Part shown: in pieces, positions 54,120 to 54,444 of the stretch
Numbering within the stretch: the stretch's first letter is position 1
Layout of the letters: each line of letters starts with the position of its first letter
Assembly (NCBI GenBank): GCA_016787045.1
Contig: JAEUVA010000046.1
Span: 1 to 64,000 of the forward strand
DNA length: 64,000 bases
From: Chitinophagales bacterium
GTDB lineage: Bacteria > Bacteroidota > Bacteroidia > Chitinophagales > LD1
Reading direction: 5' to 3'
The notes under the pieces: model-generated
Told to the model about the DNA's origin: nothing
The model's input: the letters and a program-made list of their open reading frames with translations, nothing else
Databases searched by the model: none
Program-made: the position numbers and the translations under genes

Positions 54120-54139
54120 AAATCTCCCGAAGGAGATTT
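54120..54139 (-). terminator. UUCG-loop terminator, copy 3
   Basis: On the minus strand AAATCTCC-TTCG-GGAGATTT then T-run; follows the second broken tRNA-Ala copy. The same hairpin recurs at 54231 and 54344. Confidence 0.85.
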
Positions 54140-54146
54140 CTAAAAG

Positions 54147-54222
54147 TGGAGGATAACGGAGTCGAACCGATGACCTTCCCGATTGCTATCGGGACGCTCT
54201 GCGCCAGCTGAGCTAATCCCTG
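54147..54222 (-). pseudogene. Broken tRNA-Ala copy with replaced anticodon arm (distal)
   Basis: D arm, T arm and 3' acceptor strand match the intact tRNA-Ala at 54371. The anticodon arm is replaced by the palindrome at 54177-54194 (8-nt loop if a 5-bp stem is assumed), and the first two acceptor bases are changed (CAGGGAT). Not a normal tRNA. Confidence 0.85.
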
Positions 54223-54230
54223 AAACAAAA

Positions 54231-54250
54231 AAATCTCCCGAAGGAGATTT
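54231..54250 (-). terminator. UUCG-loop terminator, copy 2
   Basis: Identical hairpin between the two broken tRNA-Ala copies. Confidence 0.85.
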
Positions 54251-54259
54251 CTTGTGATG

Positions 54260-54335
54260 TGGAGGATAACGGAGTCGAACCGATGACCTTCCCGATTGCT
54301 ATCGGGACGCTCTGCGCCAACTGAGCTAATCCCTA
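54260..54335 (-). pseudogene. Broken tRNA-Ala copy with replaced anticodon arm (proximal)
   Basis: As the distal copy, with the palindrome at 54290-54307. The 5' acceptor reads TAGGGAT in place of GGGGGAT. Copy-to-copy distance is 113 bp, and 111 bp to the distal copy. Confidence 0.85.
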
Positions 54336-54343
54336 AAACAAAA

Positions 54344-54363
54344 AAATCTCCCGAAGGAGATTT
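54344..54363 (-). terminator. UUCG-loop terminator, copy 1
   Basis: Terminator of the intact tRNA-Ala: stem AAATCTCC / GGAGATTT, C(UUCG)G tetraloop, T-run on the minus strand. Confidence 0.88.
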
Positions 54364-54370
54364 CTAAAAG

Positions 54371-54444
54371 TGGAGGATAACGGAGTCGAACCGATGACCT
54401 CTTGCATGCCATGCAAGCGCTCTAGCCAGCTGAGCTAATCCCCC
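54371..54444 (-). tRNA. tRNA-Ala (anticodon GGC)
   Basis: Complete cloverleaf on the minus strand. The acceptor GGGGGAT/ATCCTCC carries the alanine identity pair G3:U70. The anticodon stem CTTGC has loop ATGGCAT (GGC). The T arm contains GGTTCGACTCC. The discriminator is A73 and CCA is not encoded. Two broken copies follow in its direction of transcription. Confidence 0.96.

Follow-up and report, generated by a model that had tools for sequence, protein, structure and literature searches.

Hairpin-armed copies of a Chitinophagales tRNA-Ala gene as probable remnants of a miniature tRNA-targeting mobile element

What are the two tRNA-like copies that follow the tRNA-Ala(GGC) gene in the 64,000-nt stretch of Chitinophagales DNA analysed here (the window)? 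The original prediction described them as broken copies, each with its own UUCG terminator, and this is confirmed: ARAGORN calls both 'tRNA-???' with a four-base loop 'agca', and a terminator follows each copy (Table 1). As also predicted, the repeated unit is the whole tRNA plus terminator cassette. The units are spaced by 111 and 113 bp in the order tRNA, copy 1, copy 2 on the minus strand; the two copies are 98% identical across 107 nt, and each begins 5–6 nt past the preceding terminator. The terminators of the intact gene and of copy 2 have the stem AGAAATCTCC-UUCG-GGAGATTTTT. When the tRNA fold was scored, as had been proposed, the Rfam tRNA model gave the copies 33.1 and 31.8 bits, barely above its cut-off of 29 bits, and the real tRNA-Ala 59.7 bits.

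The D arm, the T arm and the G3:U70 pair are retained along with the terminator, and the first acceptor bases are altered as claimed, with pairs 1:72 and 2:71 broken. The anticodon arm had been called foreign. It is indeed replaced, but the replacement is not arbitrary: in both copies the anticodon stem-loop, positions 27–43, is exactly swapped for TCCCGAT-AGCA-ATCGGGA, an instance of a recurrent TCCCG...CGGGA hairpin, and position 26 and the variable loop are the same as in tRNA-Ala. Neither copy has the makings of a functional tRNA, as the acceptor stem is incomplete and the loop is ATAGCAAT instead of a seven-base anticodon loop.

Table 1. Features of the two hairpin-armed tRNA loci in the window.
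Feature	Position	Strand	Basis
Intact tRNA-Ala(GGC)	54370..54444	-	ARAGORN; Rfam tRNA model 59.7 bits
TAnnTTTG-type promoter element TACATTTG, before intact tRNA-Ala only	54466..54473	-	sequence read; same motif precedes tRNA-Ala in relatives
UUCG terminator of intact tRNA-Ala	54342..54365	-	terminator search
Hairpin-armed tRNA-Ala copy 1	54259..54335	-	ARAGORN, repeat comparison, Rfam
Signature hairpin TCCCGATAGCAATCGGGA replacing anticodon arm, copy 1	54290..54307	-	hairpin pattern
UUCG terminator after copy 1	54230..54252	-	read directly from sequence; repeat family D1
Hairpin-armed tRNA-Ala copy 2	54146..54222	-	ARAGORN, repeat comparison, Rfam
Signature hairpin TCCCGATAGCAATCGGGA, copy 2	54177..54194	-	hairpin pattern
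UUCG terminator after copy 2	54118..54141	-	terminator search
Intact tRNA-Thr(TGT), second such locus in window	205..278	-	ARAGORN
Tandem 83-bp pseudo-Thr copies with hairpin TCCCGATGGCAATCGGGA (154-171, 71-88; third cut by contig end)	1..204	-	

Because the same hairpin-armed copies recur at other tRNA loci, in this genome and in others, we take the Ala copies to be more than chance. In this genome, a tRNA copy with TCCCG...CGGGA is found at seven tRNA loci: Ala, Thr, Arg, Asn, Val, Leu and Met, the last with a variant hairpin. In the pseudo-Thr units of the window, TCCCGATGGCAATCGGGA occupies the same place as the hairpin in the Ala copies; this array is interrupted by the contig end (start of C1) and resumes at the end of C8, before tRNA-Tyr, Thr(GGT) and Gly. 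Arg(ACG) has one hairpin copy upstream and one downstream. At the Leu(TAA) and Met loci (L238 and L239), a small ORF with a GIY-YIG nuclease domain lies between the tRNA and the copy, which carries the variant hairpin CTCCGACAAAAAGTCGGAGG in the Met case. The Thr, Arg, Asn and Val loci are without GIY-YIG, and neither the arrays of the window nor the rest of its 64,000 nt contain a GIY-YIG ORF or remnant. Some hairpin loci coincide with the ends of contigs (C1/C8, C6/C38), where repeats left unresolved would be expected.

Beyond this genome, tRNA genes of many isotypes have hairpin-armed copies, in Bacteroidota and in a few further phyla, and in distant genomes these copies often lie beside a GIY-YIG nuclease gene or form a tandem array. 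The pattern GAGCRTCCCGn(4–14)CGGGAnGGTY, used to scan GTDB, matched at least 119 stretches, many from Bacteroidota, with n of 4–12 in relatives; it was found in 16 of 61 genomes, compared to none of the 61 for the reversed control pattern. Identity between copy and tRNA is just 0.25 in the anticodon stem and 0.9–1.0 at the adjoining positions. In the larger set, the hairpin core with its five pairs was a given of the search pattern; further inward, the stems extend by varying, complementary pairs (A-T, C-G, T-A and others), with 2.10 inner pairs compared to 0.62 after shuffling. A folded strand or a dyad is therefore kept. No tRNA or GIY-YIG lies near 52 of the 185 hairpin copies, which are partly chance matches or contig ends. 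At tRNA-Ala(GGC) itself, where the original prediction proposed looking for the same arrangement in relatives, two of nine congeners (L023, L030) have GIY-YIG and a hairpin copy, and the other seven have neither nearby. Such patchy presence is typical of mobile elements.

Several observations concern palindromes more generally. TCCCG-n(4–14)-CGGGA is enriched over the reversed pattern outside tRNA loci too, in this genome (G000, 38 vs 9) and in G031 (63 vs 10) and G032 (21 vs 1), though not in all relatives. Among loci L254, L106, L270, L272, L049, L057, L266 and L275, other palindromes lie elsewhere in tRNA copies: CCTGCCTGCCGGCAGGCAGG in a D loop, TCCGCCnnnnGGCGGA in Met copies, and TCCCGCACRTGCGGGA in T loops and, for Asn, on the 5' side of the anticodon arm. 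The neisserial repeat dRS3 (ATTCCC-N8-GGGAAT) resembles the hairpin in appearance (PMC3898611). Matches to the hairpin in IMG/VR mostly have other loop sequences, resembling real tRNA arms, and just 4 of 64 stretches have a GIY-YIG match; on these grounds we set aside a phage origin. A few IMG/VR contigs (L308, L312, L315, L284) carry a related GIY-YIG ORF and the hairpin pattern, and may be prophage or host DNA.

How closely are the nuclease ORFs tied to tRNA genes? We chose 60 short GIY-YIG ORFs from relatives by domain score and not by hairpin; two of them belong to the window's genome. An intact tRNA on the same strand lies within 300 bp of 27 of the 60, most within 60 bp, compared to about 2 expected from a 3% background, which is a generous estimate from the tRNA density in the window (P ~1e-25). 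At many loci an intact tRNA, a terminator or short spacer, a small GIY-YIG ORF and the hairpin-armed copy follow one another on the same strand. Several further GIY-YIG ORFs have only a hairpin copy behind them (L098, L100, L104, L108), and two GIY-YIG-hairpin units stand in tandem at L119, L185, L189 and L224.

The register between ORF and hairpin can be exact. In 20 of the 54 ORFs with a hairpin, the latter begins exactly 7 nt after the last sense codon, and where we inspected these ORFs the stop codon is the TAG of TAGAGC; at L010, for example, the ORF ends ...SRRYIEYLISSAG and the TAGAGC lies in the D arm of the copy. In other GIY-YIG ORFs the frame enters the hairpin, ending in EHPDL or similar. 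The two ORFs of this genome score 55.7 (L238) and 53.1 bits (L239) against Pfam PF01541 (GIY-YIG; cut-off 22.6). Across 69 tRNA- or hairpin-linked ORFs, with a mean identity of 0.39, the GIY-YIG residues Y, YxG, R, H and E are near-invariant, the catalytic Y, YxG, R and E being conserved in 66–69 of the 69 alignment rows. We found no recognisable DNA-binding domain in the tRNA-linked ORFs.

In a tree of the GIY-YIG ORFs, built on 83 columns with most forks poorly resolved, the ORFs cluster by tRNA isotype (25 changes, compared to a mean of 38.6 and a minimum of 34 after shuffling). Homing to the cognate tRNA would predict such clustering across families; slow vertical descent would give it too. 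The tRNA- or hairpin-linked ORFs stand largely apart from a supported clade (99*) of short GIY-YIG ORFs that have no tRNA link and end in KGWSRKKK-type sequences. Five ORFs ending in KGWSRKKKxALI (L090, L091, L099, L101, L118) have dispersed GGTTCGGCTACGCTCACCATGAC / CACCCTGAGCGTAGTCGAAGG-type repeats close behind them, and may form nuclease-repeat pairs too.

If the hairpin copies derive from insertion, which part of the tRNA do they carry? At the 32 loci with the order tRNA, GIY-YIG, hairpin, what follows the hairpin matches the neighbouring tRNA from position 44 onwards, its 3' half, at a median identity of 1.00, and usually includes the terminator; on the 5' side of the copy the exact run has a median of 9 nt. 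The two terminators are unlike at L010, L023, L247 and L276, which would fit one having come with the element and the other being the host's. Copies downstream of a tRNA have an identity of 0.64 in the 5' half and 0.87 in the 3' half, the latter being favoured in 34 of 47. Copies upstream mirror this, with 0.96 in the 5' half and 0.44 in the 3' half (5' favoured in 40 of 41), and therefore the outer tRNA half tends to be kept. The simplest reading is insertion of an element at an edge of the anticodon arm, with a copy of the displaced half carried along. The Ala copies of the window are of the downstream kind, with both tRNA halves fairly well preserved and no ORF. As a side observation, a conserved Ser(GCT)-Pro(TGG)-Arg(TCT) cluster occurs in several versions, with a hairpin copy before Arg, or GIY-YIG and a copy after Arg or after Pro (L119, L178, L189, L186, L221, L237, L276), and offers a natural set for studying insertion.

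Our best explanation is that the window holds a nuclease-less tandem remnant of a tRNA-targeting element, and the Ala copies are probably what is left of such a miniature, homing-like mobile element. The full element would span about 280 bp and consist of a free-standing GIY-YIG ORF of 80–90 aa and a TCCCG-n-CGGGA hairpin, with tRNA halves at its bounds. It would sit at one edge of the anticodon arm and carry a copy of the displaced tRNA half, joined to the hairpin in place of the anticodon arm, and the host would therefore keep one intact tRNA. The nuclease would make its break in or close to the anticodon arm or the hairpin, and the nuclease-hairpin unit would be copied into this break, for example in an empty tRNA gene, by host recombination via tRNA sequences. 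Recombination between repeats could expand or contract the tandem copies and drop the nuclease gene, and the window may represent the non-autonomous product: two tandem tRNA-hairpin-terminator units behind a working tRNA-Ala. Several observations count against a mobile element: the intact tRNA keeps the same junction between anticodon arm and 3' half as a naive tRNA, so that the element would have to spare its own host; the nuclease ORF is missing from the arrays and from the window as a whole; the GIY-YIG ORFs show no recognisable DNA-binding domain; and some hairpin copies have neither tRNA nor GIY-YIG nearby.

It is tempting to speculate further that one GIY-YIG domain and one hairpin, in about 280 bp, make up a minimal class of autonomous mobile element. 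Such an element could recognise, in many tRNA genes and possibly as ssDNA, the folded anticodon arm or the hairpin that mimics it, insert on either side, restore the tRNA from the carried half and spread among bacterial chromosomes by tRNA homology. We put this broader view forward tentatively, as a possibility.

A single-strand version of our best explanation seems possible, if rather unlikely. An Ssn-like site-specific ssDNA endonuclease would act in replication or DNA uptake with the hairpin as its site, and tRNA anticodon arms would be entered or mimicked because they fold as hairpins. The varying complementary stem pairs would suit it, as they point to a folded single strand or a cruciform, and so would the precise replacement of a naturally folding arm and the existence of small stand-alone GIY-YIG ssDNA nucleases with repeated sites (the Ssn family). 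However, a hairpin in double-stranded DNA is a dyad site too, readable by a dimer.

We consider it unlikely that a REP-like palindrome was moved into spare tRNA copies by a Y1 (RAYT-type) transposase, with the GIY-YIG gene incidental. The greater frequency of TCCCG-n-CGGGA over its reverse in this genome and several relatives would be consistent with this, as would the Y1 genes in 15 of 17 genomes and the palindromes in other loops of tRNA copies (L106, L254, L266, L270). However, the GIY-YIG stop codon, hairpin and tRNA half often stand in fixed register, and G032 has both the palindromes and a GIY-YIG-hairpin-tRNA locus (L266), yet shows no Y1 match, which makes Y1/RAYT improbable as the sole mover.

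Could the copies instead act as RNAs? According to the original prediction, transcripts could still be made, giving tRNA-like RNAs unable to decode. This claim is weak: the acceptor pairs are broken, only 5–6 nt lie between each copy and the terminator before it, and our promoter search, which does not cover Bacteroidota promoters, found no promoter-like site before the copies. The sole TAnnTTTG motif seen at the Ala locus precedes the intact gene, where TACATTTG matches the Bacteroidota promoter consensus. The copies would have to be transcribed by read-through and processed, and might then serve as AlaRS-charged decoys or regulators; they do pass the Rfam cut-off, retain G3:U70 and have a hairpin arm that still pairs and a terminator each. 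However, one of the two folds no better than shuffles (z −1.0), and the 5' acceptor strand is missing from most GIY-YIG-linked relatives, the D arm from many. A function as tRNA-like RNAs is not supported, and we regard it as very unlikely.

Ordinary tandem duplication of the tRNA cassette and its later decay, without any mobile element, would account for tandem, non-decoding copies and for their absence from tRNA-Ala(GGC) in seven of nine congeners, but this simple decay, named at the outset as the alternative, is extremely improbable, as the same 17 positions are swapped for the same hairpin across isotypes, loci and phyla (in distant genomes, at tRNA loci for Ala, Thr, Arg, Asn, Val, Leu, Met, Lys and Gly), paired stems are maintained, and decay does not place a GIY-YIG ORF between copies.

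If the mobile-element reading is correct, it would explain the recurrent odd tRNA pseudogenes of Bacteroidota and the contig breaks at tRNA arrays, and would add a very small mobile element that lands in tRNA genes without killing them. It would also carry tRNA homing of the SegB kind beyond phages to bacterial chromosomes and yield compact nucleases for testing, each paired with a natural cognate hairpin. In the largely open-access literature on GIY-YIG with tRNA genes in Bacteroidetes, we found no description of the GIY-YIG/hairpin/tRNA arrangement. This is a weak negative; the family is widespread and seemingly undescribed.

Among known systems, the group I introns of tRNA anticodon loops that have GIY-YIG enzymes share the anticodon-arm location, and there is a weak grpIintron_endo match. 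Unlike in these introns, the intact tRNA is uninterrupted and no intron or ribozyme was found; we rejected a group I intron, as Rfam finds only tRNA in ten loci. Elements with a tyrosine recombinase integrate into tRNA genes and rebuild the tRNA with a copy of its 3' half that they bring along. The present elements would similarly restore the tRNA from a carried half, but they span only about 280 bp, have no integrase, use both sides of the anticodon arm and have the whole arm replaced by a hairpin. The Ssn family comprises GIY-YIG site-specific ssDNA nucleases that cut single-stranded repeats; they resemble the present system in that a small GIY-YIG protein goes with a cognate sequence present in repeats, and Ssn is not known to have a tRNA context. 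UPF0213-like small GIY-YIG proteins are similar in domain, with a match to PDB 1zg2 (BH0048) over the whole domain (E 1e-5) and Pfam GIY-YIG scores above the cut-off. The separate KGWSRKKK-ended clade (99*) shows no tRNA association.

The closest known system is phage SegB, a free-standing GIY-YIG homing endonuclease of T-even phages that, as outlined in one account, adjoins tRNA genes and cuts inside them; tandem tRNA-segB repeats arise when the 5' region of the tRNA recombines with the 3' region of segB (PMC13096335). Compared to SegB as outlined there, the present elements lie in bacterial chromosomes, encode 80–90 aa with the catalytic domain only, occur at many isotypes and have a TCCCG...CGGGA hairpin inside the tRNA copy. 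They share with it a stand-alone GIY-YIG gene beside tRNA genes and the tandem nuclease repeats, and by analogy with SegB, cutting by the small enzyme and repair through tRNA homology may be what carries them from one tRNA gene to another.
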